64,000 nt of DNA. Origin: Pseudomonas gozinkensis. GTDB lineage: Bacteria > Pseudomonadota > Gammaproteobacteria > Pseudomonadales > Pseudomonadaceae. The DNA is taken from positions 5,661,501 to 5,725,500 of the forward strand of contig NZ_CP062253.1 in NCBI RefSeq assembly GCF_014863585.1, written 5' to 3'. The notes under the pieces were generated by a model. That model was not told the origin of the DNA. It did no database searches and worked only from the letters and a program-made list of their open reading frames with translations. Below, one piece after another: positions 2,277 through 14,600 of the stretch; position 1 is the first letter of the stretch, and every line of letters starts with the position of its first letter. A program made the translations under genes and the position numbers.

Positions 2277-2331
2277 CTCCACAGGTCGAACCCTCGGCCC
2301 AAGCCAAAAACAATAAGTGGAGTTTGCCCCC

Positions 2332-2772
2332 ATGCCCCCTATCGTTCTGGTGCTCAACGGCCCGAACCTGAACCTGCTCGGTACCCGTGAACCGGCGACG
2401 TACGGTCACGAAACCCTGGCCGACATCTCTGCCCTGTGCGGGCGCGCCGCCGAAGAATTCGGCCTGGCCGTGGAGTTTCGCCAGACCAATCACGAAGGCG
2501 AACTGCTCGACTGGATTCACGGCGCCCGCCAGCGCTGCGCCGGCATCGTGATCAACCCGGCCGCCTGGACACACACCTCGGTAGCGATCCGCGACGCCCT
2601 CGTTGCCAGCGAATTGCCGGTGATCGAAGTGCACCTGTCCAACGTCCATGCCCGCGAGCCGTTCCGTCACCACTCGTTCGTCTCGGCCATCGCCACCGCC
2701 GTGATGTGCGGCTTCGGCAGCCACGGTTATCGCCTGGCCCTGGAACATTTCAGCCAGCGGCTGAAGGGGTGA
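2332..2772 (+). CDS. aroQ: Type II 3-dehydroquinate dehydratase
   Basis: A 146-residue type II enzyme that converts 3-dehydroquinate to 3-dehydroshikimate. The signature [17 protein letters not shown] is at residues 9-25. The family catalytic residues are visible: Tyr24, Asn75 ([11 protein letters not shown]), His101 (VHLSN) and Arg112 (EPFRHHS). The ATG at 2332 is chosen over an in-frame upstream ATG because the family begins at [11 protein letters not shown] and TGGAG lies nine bases before it. The gene is followed five bases later by an AroE-type dehydrogenase and precedes quiC. It is therefore probably the catabolic copy that feeds dehydroshikimate into protocatechuate formation, rather than the biosynthetic one. 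Two candidate operators lie upstream. Confidence 0.95.
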
Positions 2773-2777
2773 ACCAC

Positions 2778-3632
2778 ATGAACCGCAACAACGTGATACT
2801 CGCCGGGCTGATCGGCGCCGGCATTCAGGCCTCCCGCACTCCGGCGCTGCATGAACACGAAGGTGACGAACAGGGTCTGCGTTACTTGTACCGCTTGATC
2901 GATCTCGATCAACTGCAACTGGACAGCAACGCCCTGCCCGACCTGTTGTTGGCCGCCGAACGAATGAATTACACCGGCCTGAACATCACCTTCCCGTGCA
3001 AGCAGGCAATCATCCCGCTGCTCGATGAGCTGTCCGCGGAAGCCCGAGGCATCGGCGCCGTGAACACGGTGGTGCTCAAGGACGGCAAACGCGTCGGACA
3101 CAACACCGATTGCCTGGGTTTCGCAGAGGGTTTTCGTCGCGGCCTGCCAGACGTCGCCCGCGAGCGTGTGGTCCAGATGGGCGCCGGTGGCGCCGGTGCG
3201 GCGGTGGCCCACGCCTTGTTGAGCGAAGGCGTACAGCAACTGAGCATTTTTGATGTGGACGTGGAGCGCGCCGAAAGCCTGGCGAACAACCTCAACCAGC
3301 ATTTCGGCGCTGGCCGGGCGGTTGCCGGGCATGATCTGGCGAGCACGCTGAATCAGGCCGATGGCCTGGTGAACACCACGCCGATGGGTATGGCCAAACT
3401 GCCGGGTATGCCCGTGCCGGCGGCATTGCTGCGGCCTGAGTTGTGGATAGCGGAGATCGTATATTTCCCACTGGAAACCGAACTGCTGCGCAACGCCCGC
3501 GCCCTGGGTTGCCGAACCCTGGATGGCGGCAACATGGCGGTGTTTCAGGCGGTGAAGGCGTTTGAGCTGTTCAGCGGCAGAGTGCCGGATGCGCAGCGAA
3601 TGCTCGCGCATTTCCAAAGCATGAATGGTTGA
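2778..3632 (+). CDS. aroE: Shikimate/quinate dehydrogenase, AroE family, probably NAD-dependent
   Basis: A 284-residue shikimate dehydrogenase family enzyme that interconverts shikimate (or quinate) and the 3-dehydro compound. Substrate-site residues are present: Ser19/Thr21-type start (SRTPALH), Lys75 in NITFPCKQ, Asn96 in GAVNT and Asp111 in GHNTDCLGF. The Rossmann motif GAGGAGAAVAHAL is at about 136-148. After the second strand the sequence reads IFDVDVERAESL. NADP-dependent AroE proteins have Asn-Arg-Thr here, so Asp159 suggests NAD preference, as in quinate-type catabolic enzymes. It sits directly after aroQ in an apparent operon. Catabolic shikimate or quinate dehydrogenase is the best reading. 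A BIME follows the stop. Confidence 0.9.
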   Translation: MNRNNVILAGLIGAGIQASRTPALHEHEGDEQGLRYLYRLIDLDQLQLDSNALPDLLLAAERMNYTGLNITFPCKQAIIPLLDELSAEARGIGAVNTVVLKDGKRVGHNTDCLGFAEGFRRGLPDVARERVVQMGAGGAGAAVAHALLSEGVQQLSIFDVDVERAESLANNLNQHFGAGRAVAGHDLASTLNQADGLVNTTPMGMAKLPGMPVPAALLRPELWIAEIVYFPLETELLRNARALGCRTLDGGNMAVFQAVKAFELFSGRVPDAQRMLAHFQSMNG

Positions 3633-3749: not shown

Positions 3750-4427
3750 TCACGCCTGCAAGTAGCGCAGCACCGACTCGCAAATCATCTCGCGATGACG
3801 CTGTTTGATGGCTTCGTCCGGCAGGTCGATCTGAAAGATCTCACCGAACGTGTGGCGGTTCGATACGCGATAGAAGCAGAACGAACTGATCAACAGATGC
3901 ACGTCCAGCGCGTCGAGCCCGGCGCGGAACACCCCTTCTTCAGCACCACGACGCAGAATCTCGCCCAGTGAATCGAGGATGGTGTTGTTCATCGCCTTGA
4001 TCGCGTCGGAACGCTTCACGTACTCGGCGTTATGGATGTTTTCGATGCTGACGATCCGCACGAAATCGACGTTGCGGTCGTGGTGATCGAAGGTGAATTC
4101 CACCAGGCGCCGGATCGCTTCCACCGGCGGCAATTCAGCCAGGTGCAGGCGGTTCTCGGTGCTGCGGATATCGCCGTAGAGTTTCTCCAGCACCTCGACG
4201 TACAACTGCTCCTTGCTGCCGAAGTAGTAATAGATCATGCGCTTGGAGGTATGGATGCGCTCGGCGATCGCGTCCACACGAGCACCGGACAGACCCTGCT
4301 GGACGAACTCGACGATCGCCTCCTGCAGGATATTCTCGCGGGTCTTTTCCGGGTTGTTCTTGCGACTTTTGCGCGGCTCTACCGTGGGTAGAACGGGGGC
4401 GGCGGAAAGTTCTGAAGTCATTGTCAT
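3750..4427 (-). CDS. TetR-family transcriptional regulator of the dehydroshikimate cluster
   Basis: A 225-residue TetR regulator. The DNA-binding domain spans about residues 27-75 and includes TRENILQEAIVEFVQQGL and SKRMIYYYFGSKEQLY, the canonical TetR recognition helix. The remaining 150 residues are a ligand/dimer domain. It is encoded between aroQ-aroE and quiC on the opposite strand to aroE. A 25-bp motif occurs in front of both outer units (2252-2276 and 6523-6547), which makes this gene product the most likely binder. The ligand may be dehydroshikimate, shikimate or quinate; this is inference. A second ATG two codons downstream is possible. Confidence 0.9.
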   Translation of the reverse strand: MTMTSELSAAPVLPTVEPRKSRKNNPEKTRENILQEAIVEFVQQGLSGARVDAIAERIHTSKRMIYYYFGSKEQLYVEVLEKLYGDIRSTENRLHLAELPPVEAIRRLVEFTFDHHDRNVDFVRIVSIENIHNAEYVKRSDAIKAMNNTILDSLGEILRRGAEEGVFRAGLDALDVHLLISSFCFYRVSNRHTFGEIFQIDLPDEAIKQRHREMICESVLRYLQA

Positions 4428-4529: not shown

Positions 4530-6431
<1,902 letters not shown>

Positions 6432-6565: not shown

Positions 6566-6704
6566 ACAATGCCGGTTTGGCGAATTGACGATTTTTCGTC
6601 CACTGCCCAACATCCCTTTCACCTTGAGTCCGGAACTGAACCACCGGTCGCAGCGTGCACAAAAAAAGCACACCAAATAACAAATCCAAAAACGGGTGGA
6701 ACAC

Positions 6705-8042
6705 ATGATTCCTTCACAGACTTCCCGCATGGCTCCGGCCATGAGCACTGCCACGGGTGGCATCGGCGACAAGATCCGCGGCGCCATGGCCGTCGGCAAG
6801 ACCCGTTGGGGCATGCTGGCGCTGGTGTTTTTCGCCACCACCCTGAACTACATCGACCGCGCCGCCCTCGGCGTCATGCAGCCGATCCTCGCCAAGGAAA
6901 TGAGCTGGACGGCGATGGACTACGCCAACATCAACTTCTGGTTTCAGGTTGGCTACGCGATCGGCTTCGTGCTGCAAGGACGGCTGATCGACCGGGTCGG
7001 CGTCAAACGCGTGTTCTTCTGCGCGGTGCTGCTCTGGAGCCTGGCCACCGGCGCCCACGGTCTGGCGACCTCGGCAGTGGGCTTCATGGTCTGCCGGTTC
7101 ATCCTCGGCCTCACCGAAGCGGCCAACTATCCGGCCTGCGTGAAAACCACACGCCTGTGGTTCCCGGCCGGCGAGCGCGCCGTGGCTACCGGCATCTTCA
7201 ACGCCGGCACCAACGTCGGCGCGATGTTCACCCCGATGCTGCTGCCGCTGATCCTTCACGTGTGGGGCTGGCAGGCTGCGTTCCTGTGCATGTCGGCACT
7301 GGGCGGGATCTGGCTGCTGTTCTGGGGCCTGAAGTACTTCAACCCGGAAGATCACCCGAGCGTCAAACAGTCGGAACTGGAGTACATCCAGAAAGAAGTC
7401 GAACCGGACCAGGCCCGTGTGCCGTTCTCGAAAATCCTGCGCATGCGCGGCACCTGGGCCTTCGCCCTCGCCTATTCGCTGACCGCGCCGGTGTTCTGGT
7501 TCTACCTGTACTGGCTGCCGCCGTTTCTCAATCAGCAATACAACCTGGGCATCAACGTCACCCAGATGGGCATTCCGCTGATCATCATCTACGTCACCGC
7601 CGACTTCGGCAGCGTGGGCGGCGGGATTCTGTCTTCGTTCCTGATCGGTCGCGGCATGAACTCGATCAAGGCGCGGCTGCTGTCGATGTTCCTGTTTGCC
7701 TGCTGCATCATCGGCGTGGTCATGGCCGCCGGTTCCGCCAACCTGTGGGTCGCCGTCGCCGCCATCTCCCTGGCCATCGGCGCGCATCAGGCCTGGACGG
7801 CCAACATCTGGAGCCTGGTGATGGACTACACGCCCAAGCACATGATGAGTACGGTGTTCGGTTTCGGCGGCATGTGCGCGGCGATCGGCGGGATGTTCAT
7901 GACCCAGATCGTCGGCCACATCCTGACGGTCACCAACAACAACTACACCGTGCTGTTCACCCTGATCCCGGCGATGTACTTCATTGCCCTGACCTGGATG
8001 TACTTCATGGCACCGCGCAAGATTCCTACCGTCACTGAGTAA
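6705..8042 (+). CDS. MFS transporter (anion:cation symporter type), probable quinate/shikimate uptake
   Basis: A 445-residue inner-membrane major facilitator with about twelve hydrophobic segments. It starts with the ACS-type first helix, ALVFFATTLNYIDRAALGV, and has the loop 2-3 motif GRLIDRVGVKRVFF. These features match transporters for organic acids and hexuronates. It is divergent from quiC and shares its regulatory region with it, so the cargo is probably quinate, shikimate or dehydroshikimate. The ATG at 6705 is chosen because GGTGGA lies four bases upstream; a GTG three codons earlier (6696) is in frame and possible. The gene ends in front of a BIME. Confidence 0.85.
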   Translation: MIPSQTSRMAPAMSTATGGIGDKIRGAMAVGKTRWGMLALVFFATTLNYIDRAALGVMQPILAKEMSWTAMDYANINFWFQVGYAIGFVLQGRLIDRVGVKRVFFCAVLLWSLATGAHGLATSAVGFMVCRFILGLTEAANYPACVKTTRLWFPAGERAVATGIFNAGTNVGAMFTPMLLPLILHVWGWQAAFLCMSALGGIWLLFWGLKYFNPEDHPSVKQSELEYIQKEVEPDQARVPFSKILRMRGTWAFALAYSLTAPVFWFYLYWLPPFLNQQYNLGINVTQMGIPLIIIYVTADFGSVGGGILSSFLIGRGMNSIKARLLSMFLFACCIIGVVMAAGSANLWVAVAAISLAIGAHQAWTANIWSLVMDYTPKHMMSTVFGFGGMCAAIGGMFMTQIVGHILTVTNNNYTVLFTLIPAMYFIALTWMYFMAPRKIPTVTE

Positions 8043-8151: not shown

Positions 8152-9030
8152 TCAGCGCCGGCTCTGCTGCCACGCTGCCGCCAGTCCGCTGCAACAGATC
8201 ACCGCGATCCCGATCACCGTCATCAGGGTCGGCGTGTGAGCAAACAGCAACCAGCCCAACAACCCTGCGAACACGATCTGGCAATAACCGAACGGCGCCA
8301 GTAACGCCGGCGCGGCATGCCGGAATGCCTGGGTCAGAAACAGGTGCGCCGTCATCCCGCAACTGCCCAGCGCCAGCATCAGCAACGCATGCCCCAGGCT
8401 CGGCACCTGCCAGAAGAACGGCACCAGCGCACTCATCACCAGCGTGTTGCACAACCCGGCGAAAAAGTTGCTGGTGGTCGGACTGTCGATTTCCGCGAGC
8501 TTGCGGGTGAGCAACTGATAGAAGCAGAAAAACAGCGCCGAACAGAACGGCAACAGAATCGCCGGAGTAAACAGGTCACCGCCCGGATGGACGATGATCA
8601 GCACACCGATGAACCCGCACACCACCGCAATCCACTGACCGCGCGTCACCCGTTCCTTGAGCAACGGCACCGACAGCGCCGTCACCAGCACCGGCGCAAG
8701 AAAGTTGACCGCCGTGGCCTCGGCCAGCGGGATGTACAGCAACGCCGTGGTGAAAAACAGGCTGGTGCCCAACAGGCACAACGCCCGCGCCAACTGCCAT
8801 AACGGGCGTTTGGTGCGCAGCACGCGCAGCCCGGACTGCGGCAGGAAAATTCCCGCCATCAGCAGCGTGTGCACCAGATACCGCGCCCACACCACCATGA
8901 CGATCGGATAAAAACCCGAAAGGTATTTCGACAGCGCGTCGTGGCTGGAGAACAGGAAGGTTGCCACGACAATCAGCAAGATCCCCTTGAAGGGTTGGTT
9001 GACGCCGGAAAGCGGAGTGCTGACGGTCAT
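8152..9030 (-). CDS. EamA-family (DMT) transporter
   Basis: A 292-residue membrane protein with about ten hydrophobic helices in two EamA repeats, starting ILLIVVATFLFSSHDALSKYL and continuing with the WARYLVHTL segment typical of the 10-TMS drug/metabolite transporters. It is the last gene of a minus-strand group with the TIM-barrel isomerase and the Gfo/Idh dehydrogenase, 66 bases downstream of the former. An importer or exporter for the compound handled by that module is likely; the substrate is unknown. A BIME lies downstream. Confidence 0.85.
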   Translation of the reverse strand: MTVSTPLSGVNQPFKGILLIVVATFLFSSHDALSKYLSGFYPIVMVVWARYLVHTLLMAGIFLPQSGLRVLRTKRPLWQLARALCLLGTSLFFTTALLYIPLAEATAVNFLAPVLVTALSVPLLKERVTRGQWIAVVCGFIGVLIIVHPGGDLFTPAILLPFCSALFFCFYQLLTRKLAEIDSPTTSNFFAGLCNTLVMSALVPFFWQVPSLGHALLMLALGSCGMTAHLFLTQAFRHAAPALLAPFGYCQIVFAGLLGWLLFAHTPTLMTVIGIAVICCSGLAAAWQQSRR

Positions 9031-9096
9031 TGGCTCTCTCTGAATGAAAAATAAACGGTGACGAGGACGCAGGCGCCCTCGCCCCTTGAAGCAGAC

Positions 9097-9912
9097 TTAA
9101 AGCCGGGCCAACAATTCCCGTGTGCGGTCGATCGCCATTTGCGCCCGCTGCAAACCACTCACGCCTTGCTCCAGCAATTTGACCGTGGGAATTTCCAGAC
9201 TCAGGGCAAGGTTAGCCGGAAGACTGTGCAACAAACCGATCAGGTCACAATCGCCCTCGCCGGGAAACCGTCGTTCATTGCGGGCCTGACGCAAAATCTC
9301 GGCCATGTCCGTCGGCCTCGGCCCGGCAACATCGCACAACTGTGCATAGCGCAGCCGTGAGGGCGGCACACCGGTCAGATCTTCCAGCCGCGATCCGGAA
9401 CGGTCGAAGTGAAAGGCATCCACCAGCACGGCCCCGTTTTCGCGCCCGGCATTGTCGACGATGCGCAACGCCTGCTCGAGATTGCGCGCATCGGTCCACG
9501 GCATGAACTCCAGATGCGGATGCAAACCGTAGGGCACCGCAAGATCGCAGAGTGCCGCAAAATTATCGGTGAGCCGCTGCTCGTCAGGGTCATTACCGGC
9601 GACCAGCAATTCACTGGCACCGAACTCAGCGCCAACGCTCAGCAGCTGCTCGAAATCCGCGACCAACGTCTGCGGTTTCAAACGCAGGATTTCCACGTCG
9701 AGCACGCCGATTCCGGTGTCACGCAAACGCGCCAGTGTCTGACGCCGCAAATCGCCATCGGCTACCAGTGGAAAGTGATATTCCTCGGGCGTCGCCGGCT
9801 CCAGACGCAGGCCGACATGGCTGTAACCGGCACGGGCCGCGACCTCGACCATGTAGGGTGGCGACAACTCCAGCACGGTCAGGCTGGCCAGGGACAGGAT
9901 TCGTTCGCTCAT
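9097..9912 (-). CDS. Sugar phosphate isomerase/epimerase-type TIM-barrel protein
   Basis: A 271-residue AP-endonuclease-2-like TIM barrel, the fold of xylose isomerase, IolE/IolI and keto-sugar epimerases. Family metal-site positions can be picked out: Glu in HPHLEFMPW, Asp in GAVLVDAFHFD, His in the same strand, and Glu in LALSLEIPT. ERRFPGEGDCDLIGLL matches the loop before the last ligand in this family. The stop of the upstream Gfo/Idh gene is only two bases away, so the two are one operon. Together they suggest oxidation and isomerisation or dehydration of a polyol, cyclitol or sugar acid. The substrate cannot be read from sequence. Confidence 0.8.
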   Translation of the reverse strand: MSERILSLASLTVLELSPPYMVEVAARAGYSHVGLRLEPATPEEYHFPLVADGDLRRQTLARLRDTGIGVLDVEILRLKPQTLVADFEQLLSVGAEFGASELLVAGNDPDEQRLTDNFAALCDLAVPYGLHPHLEFMPWTDARNLEQALRIVDNAGRENGAVLVDAFHFDRSGSRLEDLTGVPPSRLRYAQLCDVAGPRPTDMAEILRQARNERRFPGEGDCDLIGLLHSLPANLALSLEIPTVKLLEQGVSGLQRAQMAIDRTRELLARL

Positions 9913-9914
9913 GT

Positions 9915-10976
9915 TCAGGCCTCGATCTGCGCAGGTTCGGTGGCGCGACCGCTGGCCGCTGCTTCACGGACGGCCTCGACCAGCGCCAGCGTGCGTGCGG
10001 CATCGGCGGCACTCACCAGCGGTTCGACTTCCCGGCGCGCCACGCGGACGAAATGCTGCAACTGCAATCGCAAGGCTTCGTCAGGCGTGAACGGTTCATC
10101 GACCGCCAGCAACGGCTCATGCCAACCGGCGTCCACCTGATCGGCGCAGTAATGCCAGCGCTTGAGCTGTGGAATGCTCAAGGCCCCGGCTGTTCCCGCC
10201 AGCAAGTAACAGGGCTGATCGGCCTGACGCGGATAGACCGGGTTCTCCCCGGAGTTCAACTCCCAGCTCCACGGCGCCGCCACCGCATCGGAACCGGTCA
10301 GACTGCCCAGCGCTCCGCCGTCGAATTGCAGCAGGATCGCTGCGCTGTCTTCATTGGCGAAACCGCGCAGCGAACGATCAGTGATCGCCTGCACCGAACA
10401 CACTTCGCCGCACAAGTGGCGCAGCAGATCGAGGTCGTGGATCAGATTGGTCAGCAGCATGCCGGCACCGGCTTCGCGCCGCCACGCGGTTTCGAAATAC
10501 TGGTCAGGCTTACGCAGCTGGAACAACGCAGTCACCAGCGTCAGCCGTCCCAATGCTCCGTCCTTGACCAGTTCATGGGCACGCACGATCAACGGATTGT
10601 GCCGCCGATGATGGCCGACCAGCACCGGCACGCCGCTACGTTTCACCGCTGCTACCAGTTGTCGCGCCTCATCCAGATGCACACCCACCGGTTTTTCCAG
10701 CAACACCGGAACACCAGCGGCCAGGCAATCCAGCGCAGTGCTGACGTGTTGATTATTCGGATTGGCGACGATCACTGCGTCTGGCCGGTTCTGCTCCAGC
10801 ATCTGACGGTGATCGACGAAATGCGCCACACCCCACTCCGCCGCCAGGGCCGGTGCCTGAGGGCCGGGATCTGCCACGGCGCATAACGTGGCCTCGGTGA
10901 GATGTTTCAGGTGCCGATAATGTTGCTGGCCCATGTTACCGGCGCCGATAAGGGCGATTCGAAGGGGCGGGTTCAA
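9915..10976 (-). CDS. Gfo/Idh/MocA-family oxidoreductase
   Basis: A 353-residue NAD(P)-dependent dehydrogenase. The Rossmann motif IALIGAGNMGQQHYRHL is at residues 6-22, the family EKP motif at LLEKPVGVHLDEA, and GHHRRHNPLI is a substrate-loop match. Relatives act on inositols, glucose-fructose and sugar acids. The start is a TTG at 10976, chosen because GAGGA lies seven bases upstream and no ATG precedes the Rossmann strand. A 19-bp candidate IclR operator (11025-11043) lies about 50 bases upstream. It is first in the operon with the TIM-barrel and EamA genes. Confidence 0.85.
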   Translation of the reverse strand: MNPPLRIALIGAGNMGQQHYRHLKHLTEATLCAVADPGPQAPALAAEWGVAHFVDHRQMLEQNRPDAVIVANPNNQHVSTALDCLAAGVPVLLEKPVGVHLDEARQLVAAVKRSGVPVLVGHHRRHNPLIVRAHELVKDGALGRLTLVTALFQLRKPDQYFETAWRREAGAGMLLTNLIHDLDLLRHLCGEVCSVQAITDRSLRGFANEDSAAILLQFDGGALGSLTGSDAVAAPWSWELNSGENPVYPRQADQPCYLLAGTAGALSIPQLKRWHYCADQVDAGWHEPLLAVDEPFTPDEALRLQLQHFVRVARREVEPLVSAADAARTLALVEAVREAAASGRATEPAQIEA

Positions 10977-11024
10977 GGTGCGATCCTCTTGTGATTGTTG
11001 TGGGAAAACTCACTCCTCCAACAA

Positions 11025-11043
11025 TTTAGAACCCGGTTCCAGA
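11025..11043. promoter_or_regulatory. Candidate IclR operator A (Gfo/Idh operon)
   Basis: The minus strand reads TCTGGAACCGGGTTCTAAA. It matches 12001-12019 at 16 of 19 bases, and the inner part GGAACCGGGTTC is a near-palindrome of the TGGAAC-N-GTTCCA kind bound by IclR proteins. It lies just upstream of the minus-strand Gfo/Idh gene. Confidence 0.55.
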
Positions 11044-11092
11044 TTCTCACACCCGCCCGACTGAAAAGTGGGCGAACAGCGCACAGCTTTGC

Positions 11093-11869
11093 TTAAACGA
11101 ACAACTCCGAAGCCAGGCTGGCCGCCGACAACTCCTCGGTGAACGTCAGCAACAGCGGTGCCAGTTCATGCAATCGAGCCCCCGGCATCCGTGCGCTCGG
11201 CCCGGCGATGCTGAGCACGCCAATCACCCGGCCATCGGCGGGATGTTTCACCACGGCGGCAATTGCCGAAGTGCCCACGGCCGAGCTTTCTTCCACACAG
11301 GCATAGCCCTGCTCCCGGGCCACGCGCAGGCGTTCGAGCAGTTCAATATTGGAGCGCGGCGCGTTGGGCCCGATATCCGCCGGCACTTCCGCCCCTTGGC
11401 GTTCAACCAGCGACAACGCCTCGGCGTCGCTCATGCACGCCAGCCAAGCATGGCCCGACGCGGTGTAGAACAGCGGCGCATCGCGGCCCATGTCCGGGTC
11501 GTAACGCAGACCGGTGCGGGCGCCCTGGGCCTTGGCGATCCAGGTCTGGCGCTCGCCTTCGATCACCCCCAGACGCACCAGCTCACCGGTTTCCTGGGCC
11601 AGGCGATCAAGCACCGGCTGTACGATGTCGGCCCCGCTGCTCGACAGGTACTGAAAGCCCATCGCAACCAGTTTGGTCGACAGGTGATAGCGCAACGTCT
11701 CCGGATTCTGCCGCACGTAACCCAGGCGGATCAGCTCGGCGAGCAGCCGGTGCGTCGCGCTTTTCGGAATGTCCAGTTGCTCGGCCAGGGTCTGCATCGG
11801 CAGCCCGCGCGGATCACTGGTGAGGCTTTCCAGCACGCTGAAAACCCGTTCGATTTGACTGCCGGCCAT
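11093..11869 (-). CDS. IclR-family transcriptional regulator
   Basis: A 258-residue IclR regulator. The N-terminal winged helix spans about residues 3-65 (ERVFSVLESLTSDPRGLPMQTLAEQL, then KSATHRLLAELIRLGYV). The effector domain includes ARTGLRYDPDMGRDAPLFYTASGHAWLA and CVEESSAVGTSAIAAVV. The open frame continues far upstream across the neighbouring divergent gene, so the start was set at the ATG at 11869: it gives the usual family N-terminus and has GAGAG seven bases before it. It lies between two catabolic operons that share a 19-bp motif, which makes it their likely repressor. Confidence 0.9.
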   Translation of the reverse strand: MAGSQIERVFSVLESLTSDPRGLPMQTLAEQLDIPKSATHRLLAELIRLGYVRQNPETLRYHLSTKLVAMGFQYLSSSGADIVQPVLDRLAQETGELVRLGVIEGERQTWIAKAQGARTGLRYDPDMGRDAPLFYTASGHAWLACMSDAEALSLVERQGAEVPADIGPNAPRSNIELLERLRVAREQGYACVEESSAVGTSAIAAVVKHPADGRVIGVLSIAGPSARMPGARLHELAPLLLTFTEELSAASLASELFV

Positions 11870-11925
11870 GGTGCGCTCTCGGTGAAATTTCGCCGATTCT
11901 AGAAGACATCCCGAGGAATGCGAAA

Positions 11926-11944
11926 TCTGGAACCAGGCGTCCGA
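11926..11944. promoter_or_regulatory. Possible IclR half-site B (autoregulatory)
   Basis: TCTGGAACC at 11926-11934 repeats the left arm of the two full sites, but the right arm is not conserved. It is 57 bases upstream of the iclR-type gene, where it could support autoregulation. Weak on its own. Confidence 0.3.
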
Positions 11945-11971
11945 TAACCGCCCACTTTGCGCGTCAGTCGG

Positions 11972-12000
11972 TTGATCTGCTTCGCCCGCACTGGTTATTT
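11972..12000 (+). promoter_or_regulatory. Sigma-70-like promoter of the flavoprotein gene
   Basis: TTGATC (11972-11977), a 17-base spacer and TTATTT (11995-12000) make a fair -35/-10 pair. The next base begins the candidate IclR operator, so a bound repressor would cover the transcription start. Confidence 0.45.
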
Positions 12001-12019
12001 TCTGGAACATGATTCTAAA
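12001..12019. promoter_or_regulatory. Candidate IclR operator C (flavoprotein operon)
   Basis: TCTGGAACATGATTCTAAA, 16/19 identical to the inverted copy at 11025-11043. It sits 27 bases before the flavoprotein ATG and directly after a -10-like hexamer. Confidence 0.55.
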
Positions 12020-12046
12020 AACAATTGATTGCTGGAGCCCTTGCTG

Positions 12047-13783
12047 ATGTCTGCCCTTCCCGATATCGACTGCGACGTTCTGGTGGTCGGCTCCGGCGCC
12101 GCCGGTTTGTCGGCCGCCGTCACCGCCGCCTGGCATGGCTTGAAGGTCATCGTGGTGGAGAAGGATCCGGTGTTCGGCGGCGCCACCGCGTGGTCCGGCG
12201 GCTGGGCGTGGGTGCCGTGCAATCCGCTGGCCCGGCGCGCCGGGATCGTGGAAGACGTGGAATTGCCGCGCACCTATCTGCGCCACGAACTCGGCGGGCA
12301 CTACGACCCGGCCATGATCGACGCCTTCCTTGAAGCCGGCCCGCGCATGGTGGCGTTCTTCGAACAGCACACCGCCCTGCAATTTGCCGACGGCAACGCC
12401 ATCGCCGACATCCACGGCGAATCACCGGGCGCCGGCACCGGCGGACGCTCGGTGATTGCCGCGCCCTATGACGGACGAAAGGTCGGGCGCCTGCTCAAGC
12501 GTCTTCGCACAACCATGCGAGAAACTTCGTTCATGGGCATGCCGATCATGGCCGGCGCGGACCTGTCGGCGTTTCTCAATCTGACTCGCTCGTTGTCGGC
12601 GGCCTGGCACGTGACCCGGCGTTTCACCCGCCACCTGCTGGACCTGGCGCTGCACGGCCGGGCGATGCAACTGGTCAACGGCGTGGCGCTGGTGGCCCGG
12701 CTGGCGAAGTCCGCCGAAGACCTCGGCGTACTGCTGTGGGAGTCGGCGCCGGTGACTGAACTGCTGCGCGACGAATCACGCATCACCGGCGCTCGCGTGA
12801 ACACCACAAAAGGCCCGGTCAATGTCCATGCGCGCAAAGCCGTGGTGCTCGCGGCCGGCGGGTTCGCCAATGACATCGAGCGGCGCAAAGACTTGTTCCC
12901 TCGCACGCCCACCGGTCATGAACATTGGGCGCTGCCTCCGCTGGCAGTCAATGGCGACGGACTGCGACTGGGCGAAACCGCCGGGGGCCGGGTCAATACC
13001 GATGTGGCTTCGACCGTGGCCTGGGCACCGGTTTCGCAGGTGCCACATTCCGACGGCAGCATCGGCCATTTCCCGCACATCATCGAACGTGGCAAACCGG
13101 GCGTCATCGGCGTGCTGCGCAACGGCCAGCGCTTCGTCAACGAAGCCAACGGCTATTACGACTATGTCAGCGCCATGGTCGCCGCCGCCCCCGAAGGCGA
13201 AGAGGTCGCGTCCTGGCTGATCTGCACCCGCGCGTTCCAGCGGCGTTACGGGCTCGGCATGTCTCGGCCGTTTCCGGTTCCGGTGTCAGGTTTTATCCGC
13301 AGCGGCTATCTGAAAACCGGCAATACCCTTGAGGAATTGGCCACCGCATGCGGCATCGACCCGAAGGGTTTACGCGCCACTGTTGACGACTACAACCACC
13401 CTGCCCGGCACGGCGAAGACCCGCTGTTCGGTCGCGGCTCGACCCCGTACAACCGCAAACAGGGCGATCCGGCGCAACAACCCAATCCGTGCGTGGCGCC
13501 TATCGAACAAGGCCCGTTCTACGCGGTGAAGGTGCAGCCGGGCTGCTTCGGCACCTTCGCCGGGCTCAAGGTCAACCCTCACGCGCAAGTGCTCGACGCC
13601 GAAGACCGGCCCATCGCCGGGCTCTACGCCGCCGGAGGCGACATGGCCAGCATCATGGGCGGGCATTATCCGGCGGGCGGGATCAACCTCGGCCCGGCGC
13701 TGACTTTCGGTTACATTGCAGCCCGACACATGGCGGGCGTCACGGCTTTCGAACAGGAGATCGACCATGCAGCACATCGTTAA
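12047..13783 (+). CDS. FAD-dependent dehydrogenase, 3-ketosteroid-dehydrogenase/fumarate reductase superfamily
   Basis: A 578-residue flavoprotein. The FAD dinucleotide motif is DVLVVGSGAAGLSAAV (about residues 8-23), followed by EKDPVFGGATAWSGG, as in KstD-like enzymes. A second FAD segment is AVVLAAGGFANDIERR. The C-terminal part contains GLYAAGGDMASI and HYPAGGINLGPALTFGYIAARH. The Tyr-Pro-x-Gly-Gly pattern there resembles the KstD active-site loop, and NGQRFVNEANGYYDY supplies another candidate active-site Tyr. Members introduce or reduce a C=C bond next to a carbonyl, often in a ring. The ATG at 12047 has GGAG nine bases upstream. It overlaps the aldo-keto reductase gene by 17 bases. The substrate is unknown; a cyclic ketone is the natural guess. 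Confidence 0.8.
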   Translation: MSALPDIDCDVLVVGSGAAGLSAAVTAAWHGLKVIVVEKDPVFGGATAWSGGWAWVPCNPLARRAGIVEDVELPRTYLRHELGGHYDPAMIDAFLEAGPRMVAFFEQHTALQFADGNAIADIHGESPGAGTGGRSVIAAPYDGRKVGRLLKRLRTTMRETSFMGMPIMAGADLSAFLNLTRSLSAAWHVTRRFTRHLLDLALHGRAMQLVNGVALVARLAKSAEDLGVLLWESAPVTELLRDESRITGARVNTTKGPVNVHARKAVVLAAGGFANDIERRKDLFPRTPTGHEHWALPPLAVNGDGLRLGETAGGRVNTDVASTVAWAPVSQVPHSDGSIGHFPHIIERGKPGVIGVLRNGQRFVNEANGYYDYVSAMVAAAPEGEEVASWLICTRAFQRRYGLGMSRPFPVPVSGFIRSGYLKTGNTLEELATACGIDPKGLRATVDDYNHPARHGEDPLFGRGSTPYNRKQGDPAQQPNPCVAPIEQGPFYAVKVQPGCFGTFAGLKVNPHAQVLDAEDRPIAGLYAAGGDMASIMGGHYPAGGINLGPALTFGYIAARHMAGVTAFEQEIDHAAHR

Positions 13784-14600
13784 CAGACAAGGACTGAACC
13801 TGCCAAAACTCGGCCTCGGCACCTGGCCGATGCTCGGCGACGAATGCACCCGCGCCGTGGAGCAAGCGCTGGAACTCGGTTACCGCCACATCGACACGGC
13901 AGCGGCCTACAACAACGAAGACGCCGTCGGACAGGCCCTGGCGAATACGCCGACACCCCGCGAGCAGATTCACGTCACCACCAAGGTCTGGTGGGACCAG
14001 TTGCAACCGGACGCCATGCGTCACTCGCTGGAGCGCAGCCTCAAGGCGTTGCGCAGCGAGTACGTCGACCTGTTCATGATTCATTGGCCGACCACCGACT
14101 GGGATCTGCCGCACACTCTTGAAACCCTCGCGTCGTTCAAGGAACAGGGGCTGGCTCGCAACATCGGCGTAGCGAATTTTCCGCTGCCGCTGCTGCGCAA
14201 AGTCGTCGAGGAATACGGCATTCCTCTGTCAGCCATTCAGGTCGAGTACCACGTCCTGCTCGGACAAAACGCCCTGCTCGACTACGCCCGTCAACACGAT
14301 CTGGCGCTGACGGCCTACACGCCTCTGGCGCGCAACAAGGTCTCGGAGGTTCCTCAGATTCAGCAGATCGCCGAAAAACACGGCGTGTTGCCAACTCAGG
14401 TCGCGCTGAAGTGGCTGCTGGATCAGGACAACGTCGCGGCGATTCCCAAGGCCAGCAGCAAGACCAATCAACTGGCCAACCTGGCCTCACTGCAGGTCGA
14501 ACTGGACGATGACGACCGGGCGCTGATCGCCGCGTTGTCCAAGCGCGAACGTCAGGTCAGCCCGGACTTCGCGCCGGTCTGGGATGCCTTCGACCGCTGA
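13767..14600 (+). CDS. Aldo/keto reductase, DkgB-like
   Basis: A 277-residue NADPH-dependent carbonyl reductase. The AKR tetrad is complete: Asp43 and Tyr48 (HIDTAAAYNNE), Lys73 (VTTKVWW) and His106 (FMIHWPTT). The C-terminal IPKASSKTNQLANL forms the cofactor-phosphate pocket. The sequence end (RERQVSPDFAPVWD) parallels the end of E. coli DkgB, a 2,5-diketogluconate reductase. The start at 13767 lies inside the flavoprotein gene and is preceded by CAGGAG; the two are one operon. In this context it may reduce a diketone produced by the flavoprotein, but that is inference. Confidence 0.85.
   Translation: MQHIVNRQGLNLPKLGLGTWPMLGDECTRAVEQALELGYRHIDTAAAYNNEDAVGQALANTPTPREQIHVTTKVWWDQLQPDAMRHSLERSLKALRSEYVDLFMIHWPTTDWDLPHTLETLASFKEQGLARNIGVANFPLPLLRKVVEEYGIPLSAIQVEYHVLLGQNALLDYARQHDLALTAYTPLARNKVSEVPQIQQIAEKHGVLPTQVALKWLLDQDNVAAIPKASSKTNQLANLASLQVELDDDDRALIAALSKRERQVSPDFAPVWDAFDR

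Follow-up and report, generated by a model that had tools for sequence, protein, structure and literature searches.

What compound is processed by a gene cluster that assembles a Gfo/Idh/MocA dehydrogenase, a TIM-barrel protein, and a putative ring desaturase around one IclR-family regulator, next to genes of quinate/shikimate catabolism? The question arises from a 64-kb stretch of Pseudomonas gozinkensis DNA (here called the window; positions 5,661,501 to 5,725,500 of a single-contig 6.56-Mb genome), in which six module genes occupy positions 8152-14600, all of them intact open frames, as a reading made from the letters alone (the sequence-only reading) had listed them. On the minus strand lie the genes for an EamA/DMT transporter (8152-9030; PF00892), a single-domain, 271-aa TIM-barrel protein with a putative QuiC-type active site, proposed here as a dehydratase (TIM; 9097-9912; PF01261), the dehydrogenase, proposed to oxidize a hydroxyl group (Gfo; 9915-10976; PF01408 and PF22725; TTG start), and the 258-aa IclR-family regulator (11093-11869; PF01614 and PF09339). 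The plus strand carries a 578-aa KstD/ChcC-type FAD_binding_2 flavoprotein, the proposed ring desaturase (referred to as FAD; 12047-13783, with an alternative TTG start possible at 12029; NF004789), and an aldo/keto reductase as an optional partner (AKR; 13767-14600; PF00248), the start of which sits inside the 3' end of the FAD gene in an overlapping frame. This module is best read as extending quinate/shikimate catabolism, under IclR control, to a hydroaromatic acid, and it is made of known kinds of enzymes and regulators. With a probability of about 60%, we interpret the IclR regulon as a branch that breaks down a hydroaromatic carboxylate belonging to the quinate/shikimate family, other than quinate and shikimate themselves. 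What we report on genes, operators, co-occurrence, relocation of genes with their operators, and residue conservation stems from sequence comparison.

The two halves of the module belong together across genomes. We used TIM, FAD, Gfo, IclR, AKR, and QuiC, the 3-dehydroshikimate dehydratase encoded nearby, as queries against a panel of 144 genomes (89 of the same genus, including the one under study, and 55 from other genera). TIM was found at an identity of at least 62% in 32 genomes, all of the same genus, and FAD at an identity of at least 69% in the identical 32, albeit fragmented in G076; the remaining 57 same-genus genomes had neither at these thresholds. Hence, the co-occurrence test that the sequence-only reading had suggested for the two halves turned out in their favor, TIM and FAD being together in 32 of 32 genomes having either, although they lie far apart in two of these, G061 and G071. 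A Gfo homolog of at least 70% identity (Gfo1) was present in 25 of the 32 module genomes and a relative of 42-43% (Gfo2) in the other seven, with no further genome of the 144 at E<=1e-70. More distant TIM relatives (29-35%) were detected in three other genomes, and 5 of the 32 contained a second copy of 42-46%. A class-wide search with TIM at E<=1e-25 returned 2 of 369 genomes, that under study and G506. Since the panel genomes are related to one another, these co-occurrences are not independent events, and the Fisher values of 6.5e-25 (TIM/FAD) and 0.0016 (QuiC), which ignore relatedness, were not used as evidence.

Two predicted operators of one palindromic type, TRGAAY-N3-RTTCYA, connect both halves to the regulator. 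Operator 1, CAATTTAGAACCCGGTTCCAGATTC (11022-11046, minus strand), lies upstream of Gfo-TIM-EamA, and operator 2, TTTTCTGGAACATGATTCTAAAAAC (11998-12022, plus strand), upstream of FAD-AKR. A position weight matrix (PWM), 25 bases wide and trained on 16 different Gfo-side sites only, scored operator 1, itself in the training set, at 35.9 bits and the untrained operator 2 at 19.8 bits. These were the only matches above 11 bits in the window and five single-base shuffles of the window gave none, so that the sharing of IclR operators claimed earlier exceeds chance. We further scanned 80 public loci (the best 80 of 137, chosen for TIM; 1,554,041 bp altogether; 79 labeled Pseudomonas and one Azotobacter), some of which, e.g., L133 and L161, are genomes already in the PWM training set. 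All 143 sites above 14 bits were situated within 260 bp upstream of a module gene, namely Gfo (69), FAD (59), TIM (11), AKR (3), or EamA (1), and none elsewhere. In the panel, a site above 14 bits preceded FAD in 25 of the 27 module genomes whose FAD upstream DNA was scanned, the two without it being G061 (5.7 bits) and G071 (-5.9 bits). In G071, the relocated FAD gene overlaps a gene for an IclR relative (48%) with a 17.7-bit site in front (L049 9376-11990), possibly a duplicated regulator that traveled with FAD.

The sites also accompany genes that have moved. FAD retained its upstream site where it is displaced by 7-13 kb from IclR (L040, L043, and L046), and in loci without Gfo1 (L042 and L066-L069) the site is placed before TIM instead. 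G023 and G080 carry divergent FAD and TIM genes at 1.28 Mb and 2.07 Mb, respectively, with IclR at 5.08 Mb and 3.84 Mb, and one and two sites, respectively, between FAD and TIM, so that operators separate the relocated divergent pair (loci L055 and L065) megabases from IclR. Because operators are mostly kept with relocated genes and sites are confined to module genes, this comparison predicts that IclR probably controls the enzyme genes as one regulon, which supports the earlier notion of a single module under IclR control that includes a dehydrogenase and a ring desaturase. The regulator is an IclR-family protein by its HTH_IclR (60.6 bits) and IclR_C (89.3 bits) domains, both above cut-off, and its nearest NCBIfam model, TIGR02431 (PcaR/PcaU/PobR), reached 108.7 bits (cut-off, 284.75). 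In the Group 2 IclR operator motif, TGRAACAN1-2TGTTYCA, given in a passage of Suvorova and Gelfand 2021 (PMC8222616), TGRAAC and GTTYCA half-sites are separated by 3-4 bases and have A and T at their inner edges; the present sites agree in their spacing of 3 and in the half-sites, but differ in having either A or G as the second base and in their variable inner bases.

A search for further regulon members in the same genome yielded no candidates: a 19-base pattern drawn from both window sites matched nothing else in the 6.56 Mb (control, zero), and a shorter pattern matched five places, no more than its control. QuiC and the neighboring MFS gene were rejected as members too, with no site in their intergenic gap in the window and none among the 143 public-locus sites. 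Scans of the window for promoters (1 found, 0.9 expected) and terminators (9 found, 6.4 expected) were not used; a terminator-like hairpin of 10 pairs in the TIM/EamA gap (9060-9083), from a scan that barely exceeds shuffles, might tune expression of EamA relative to TIM.

Regulator and enzymes differ in their distribution. IclR was detected at E<=1e-60 in 44 of the 144 genomes, the 32 module genomes and 12 more. Seven loci from these 12 (L072-L078) were examined, and all had QuiC, EamA, and IclR, with an operator upstream of EamA in six. As IclR and EamA occur without the enzymes beside QuiC, the variable part consists of TIM, Gfo, and FAD, and by this comparison these three are the true add-on, and EamA and IclR a separate, wider unit. 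Of the public loci, 70 exceed 20 kb, and among these QuiC was present in 69, IclR and EamA in 68 each, MFS in 64, Gfo in 63, FAD in 60, and AKR in 42; the loci were picked by TIM, and genomes whose locus has no FAD may carry it at a distance, as G061 and G071 do. AKR, found at E<=1e-95 in 24 of the 144 genomes, four of them without the module, lies at most 60 bp from FAD in 40 of 41 public loci having both; judged by its presence in 42 of the 70 full-length loci, it is an optional member. The locus of P. fluorescens FW300-N2E3 (L160), for instance, has FAD, IclR, Gfo, TIM, EamA, and both operators but no AKR. What stands of the five-gene module proposed earlier is thus the co-conserved TIM/FAD pair with Gfo1 or Gfo2 in all 32 genomes, but not the inclusion of the separate EamA/IclR unit or of a constant AKR. 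The layout looks as if Gfo-TIM had been inserted between operator and EamA, with FAD(-AKR) added at the opposite flank of IclR, and may reflect gain or loss; IclR-AKR without FAD and TIM in G029 would fit loss of the enzymes.

Two loci deviate in structure. The 20.8-kb locus L144 (P. gregormendelii) holds FAD, Gfo, TIM, and one operator without QuiC, EamA, and IclR, and represents a relocated module in compact form. In G080 (86% completeness), QuiC (L071 4657-7293) and FAD (L065 8519-10251) are each split over two frames, representing either broken genes or sequence errors.

The chemistry is best approached through TIM. A passage of PMC7442255 lists 10 active-site residues of QuiC: R64, L97, E134, L136, D165, H168, Q191, S206, R210, and E239. 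Eight are identical in TIM, where they correspond to R77, L103, E135, D165, H168, Q191, R214, and E240, respectively, in all 12 aligned orthologs, and L136 and S206 are replaced by Met and Ala. In eight distant TIM relatives, R77 was absent from all and L103 from seven. Overall similarity to QuiC is low (21-23% identity in structural alignments; 32.9 bits against the two-domain QuiC model NF042435, cut-off 1200), and the predicted structure (pLDDT, 95.3), with Lmo2234, IolI, and QuiC as top PDB matches, did not separate QuiC from IolI by fold comparison. We propose a dehydratase with a QuiC-type metal site as the candidate function of TIM, and its Arg77 and Arg214 are predicted to contact the ligand. 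The isomerization step envisaged in the sequence-only reading is not favored because TIM keeps most residues of the QuiC site, although the fold alone does not exclude an isomerase.

Among the 120 listed of 2567 protein matches to TIM, names, where given, were mostly generic and from Pseudomonas. In the search for public loci, the best named match by TIM was P. koreensis B1M1-15 (97% identity; the organism's own record was possibly omitted from the listing). Relatives are usually labeled 'sugar phosphate isomerase/epimerase', and one source gives 'inosose isomerase'. Neither a FAD nor a QuiC homolog was found at E<=1e-20 at five same-genus paralog loci (40-44%, tblastn) or at three loci of TIM relatives in two other-family genomes (30-34%); several of these loci (L079-L086) carry a distant MFS gene (28-29%).

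FAD belongs to the PRK06134 FAD-dependent oxidoreductase subfamily (NF004789; 1004.5 bits, cut-off 747). It scored 520.7 bits with the model of ChcC2, 4-oxocyclohex-2-ene-1-carboxylate 5-dehydrogenase (NF053677; cut-off 900), 294.3 bits with that of ChcC1 (cut-off 1000), and below the cut-offs of three KstD models. Mapping by hand count on an alignment to 4c3x, with a 20-residue offset, placed the equivalents of KstD1 Tyr318, Tyr487, and Gly491 at Y370, Y541, and G545, none of which varied among the 11 aligned sequences. KstD1 Tyr119 is not conserved, Ile122 standing there beside His123, so that FAD carries three of the four residues that define KstD.

The genomic surroundings point to the substrate class. 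The left part of the window, before EamA, is a quinate/shikimate locus comprising AroQ, a type II 3-dehydroquinate dehydratase (2317-2772, plus strand; TIGR01088 above cut-off), an AroE-type shikimate/quinate dehydrogenase (2781-3632, start approximate, plus strand; NF009201, 475.7 bits, cut-off 235, the match spanning residues 116-397 of the open reading frame 2436-3632), a TetR regulator adjoining QuiC (3750-4427, minus strand; PF00440 and PF17938), the two-domain QuiC (4530-6431, minus strand; NF042435, 1286.6 bits, cut-off 1200), and an MFS transporter (6696-8042, plus strand; PF07690). In G506, from another family of the same order, adjacent FAD (68%) and TIM (63-64%) genes precede a series of AroQ, AroE, and QuiC; gene sets resembling TctABC (tripartite tricarboxylate transporters) flank this arrangement at either end, and an SDR gene is present in the absence of Gfo. 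The link to the quinate cluster suspected in the sequence-only reading is therefore real, quinate/shikimate genes neighboring the module also in another family. TctABC further stands beside IclR-Gfo-TIM-EamA-QuiC-TetR-AroE-AroQ in five Pseudomonas loci (L158, L161, L162, L165, and L167), L167 additionally containing a porin gene, for which the reference protein is OprD, and a gene named by eye as methyl-accepting chemotaxis protein (MCP)-like. Gfo2 adjoins AroQ in three of seven genomes (G007, G009, and G076) and TIM and FAD in G023; no AroQ-, TIM-, or FAD-type neighbor of Gfo2 was seen in G051, G080, and G085. For the symporter near Gfo2 in G009, a shikimate transporter was the second-best model (263.5 of 538 bits). 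Quinate/shikimate and TctABC-type partners together suggest that the substrate is a ring carboxylate.

Some observations from these surroundings concern transport, sensing, and regulation. A 4HB-domain chemoreceptor gene lies between MFS and EamA/TIM in L048 (6380-8002, where the domain was checked), L050 (10740-12362), and L053 (13950-15572), and relatives of at least 75% occur in 12 of the 80 public loci; according to a passage of PMC5449446, quinate and shikimate are ligands of PcaY_PP from P. putida. In L059 (6294-7876), L060 (6486-9524), and L061 (7201-8761), Gfo2 is found near AroQ and a LysR gene with no IclR operator, in L060 with a symporter related to shikimate transporters, and these loci may form a second regulon.

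The sequence-only reading had instead favored a cyclic polyol, cyclitol, or sugar-derived ketone, to be broken down by an IolG-like Gfo, an IolI-like TIM isomerase, FAD desaturation beside a ketone, and carbonyl reduction by AKR. IolG (TIGR04380) is indeed the best-scoring model for Gfo and for Gfo2, one of the three folds closest to TIM is that of IolI, AKR resembles DkgB (NF008377), and one source label, as mentioned, refers to inosose. However, Gfo reached 154.2 of the 355 bits of the IolG cut-off and AKR 245 of the 327 bits for DkgB, TIM retains the Arg and Leu of QuiC that distant relatives lack, and the partners in Pseudomonas and in another family are QuiC, AroQ, AroE, and in some loci TctABC. 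We therefore regard such a substrate as unlikely, and a hydroaromatic carboxylate as the better candidate.

The same QuiC-like site and the same AroQ, AroE, and QuiC neighbors could be read as an auxiliary route for quinate and shikimate themselves, with TIM as a second 3-dehydroshikimate dehydratase and FAD converting, e.g., 3-dehydroshikimate to gallate, which is 3-dehydroshikimate less two hydrogens. This appears doubtful in view of the distribution of QuiC, detected at E<=1e-200 in 74 of the 144 genomes. The module genomes already possess it (31 of 32, and G076 has a partial QuiC on its TIM-bearing contig), and so do 43 of the 57 same-genus genomes without the module, which implies that ordinary growth-type use of quinate and shikimate does not depend on the module. 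Moreover, the additional Gfo dehydrogenase would be left unexplained. The module thus probably widens the substrate range beyond quinate and shikimate.

It is still less probable that IclR mainly governs efflux of a (hydro)aromatic intermediate by EamA, the enzymes being an appendix for detoxification or salvage. Many EamA proteins are exporters, and the enzyme-free IclR-EamA loci with an operator before EamA are in keeping with this idea, but the TctABC, OprD porin, and chemoreceptor genes of some loci are consistent with uptake, and three dedicated ring-modifying enzymes would be a costly means of detoxification. Chance neighborhood of two unrelated operons around one regulator, to which the distance between FAD and TIM in G061 and G071 might point, is ruled out by their presence in the same 32 genomes and by operators that moved with most relocated genes.

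For the hydroaromatic carboxylate branch, we infer the order of steps, the product, the substrate, and the direction of regulation as follows. Gfo or a substitute dehydrogenase would oxidize a ring hydroxyl to a ketone, TIM would use its putative QuiC-type metal site to remove water next to this ketone, giving an enone, and FAD, in a ChcC2-like manner, would take two more hydrogens, yielding the aromatic ring of protocatechuate or a close relative. The aromatic product would then enter the beta-ketoadipate pathway, two dioxygenase frames that lie side by side (242 and 222 aa; PF00775; G000 1504641-1505709) representing a possible sink. IclR probably represses at promoter sites until the substrate or an intermediate would cause its release, and EamA may transport a related compound.

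A concrete candidate substrate is perhaps dihydroshikimate: by our own reasoning, protocatechuate would result if C3 were oxidized, the C5 hydroxyl eliminated as water, and the ring desaturated once. Its stereoisomers or 3,4-dihydroxycyclohexanecarboxylate might serve as alternatives. Formation of shikimate and dihydroshikimate from quinate by lactic bacteria is mentioned in a passage of PMC13204703 citing other work, and a passage of PMC7427622 names dihydroshikimate as being formed from chlorogenic acid. More tentatively, we suggest an undescribed aerobic aromatization pathway for such reduced hydroaromatic acids (dihydroshikimate, 3,4-dihydroxycyclohexanecarboxylate), into which fermenting bacteria convert plant quinate. 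In this pathway, the dehydrogenase would be exchangeable (Gfo1, Gfo2, or SDR), the dehydratase would be QuiC-like and act on a saturated ring, and a KstD/ChcC-type desaturase would complete the aromatic ring of protocatechuate.

A second cluster was noticed in the order AroQ, AroE, a relative of IclR (25-30%), a second AroE-type gene, a FAD homolog (41-43%), NIPSNAP, and another FAD homolog (about 50-54%), at L039 4500-11474 and L042 12900-19896, with parts in L041 (12646-18142) and L069 (12759-17447); L144 contains a second FAD that is 64% identical to a FAD of this cluster. The presence of two KstD-type desaturases together with relatives of shikimate dehydrogenase suggests that this cluster serves a further hydroaromatic route.

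According to a passage of PMC5449446, plants contain quinate in abundance. The matches listed from open-license PMC literature included no paper on how dihydroshikimate is broken down aerobically, nor was there a publication on this cluster among the matches listed for it. If our interpretation is true, it would name enzymes for an aerobic route from reduced hydroaromatic acids such as dihydroshikimate, give a function to a protein mostly labeled as a sugar phosphate isomerase/epimerase, and supply an IclR sensor with its predicted operator. Because all but one of the public loci are labeled Pseudomonas, the pathway should be testable in tractable strains.

Comparison with known systems shows which parts of the module are familiar. 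With myo-inositol catabolism (IolG, IolI, and IolE) it shares the folds of Gfo and TIM, but Gfo remains far from the IolG cut-off, the neighbors are different, and a FAD desaturase is present. FAD keeps the Tyr318, Tyr487, and Gly491 equivalents of KstD but lacks that of Tyr119 and falls below the KstD model cut-offs, and no steroid genes were found among the module neighbors examined. The aromatization of cyclohexanecarboxylate (ChcC1/ChcC2; NF053676/NF053677) is a closer parallel: FAD is of the KstD type and nearer to ChcC2 than to ChcC1, and in that pathway, too, hydroxyl oxidation precedes ring desaturation to a phenolic acid. Yet FAD lies far under the ChcC2 cut-off (521 of 900 bits), and the module has one desaturase instead of two, a dehydratase in addition, and other neighbors. 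An IclR regulog study had placed co-regulated COGs likely in quinate/shikimate metabolism (stated in a passage of PMC8222616), possibly under the present regulator, which lowers the novelty of the link between IclR and quinate/shikimate but not that of the enzyme set. The quinate/shikimate pathway itself, leading through AroQ, AroE/QuiA, and QuiC to protocatechuate, shares the neighborhood, QuiC being present in all 32 module genomes (partial in G076 and split in G080), and 8 of 10 QuiC active-site residues recur in TIM. However, QuiC combines TIM and HPPD domains and has no operator of this IclR, whereas TIM is a single-domain protein, and the module brings in Gfo as well as a FAD desaturase, both within an IclR regulon of their own.

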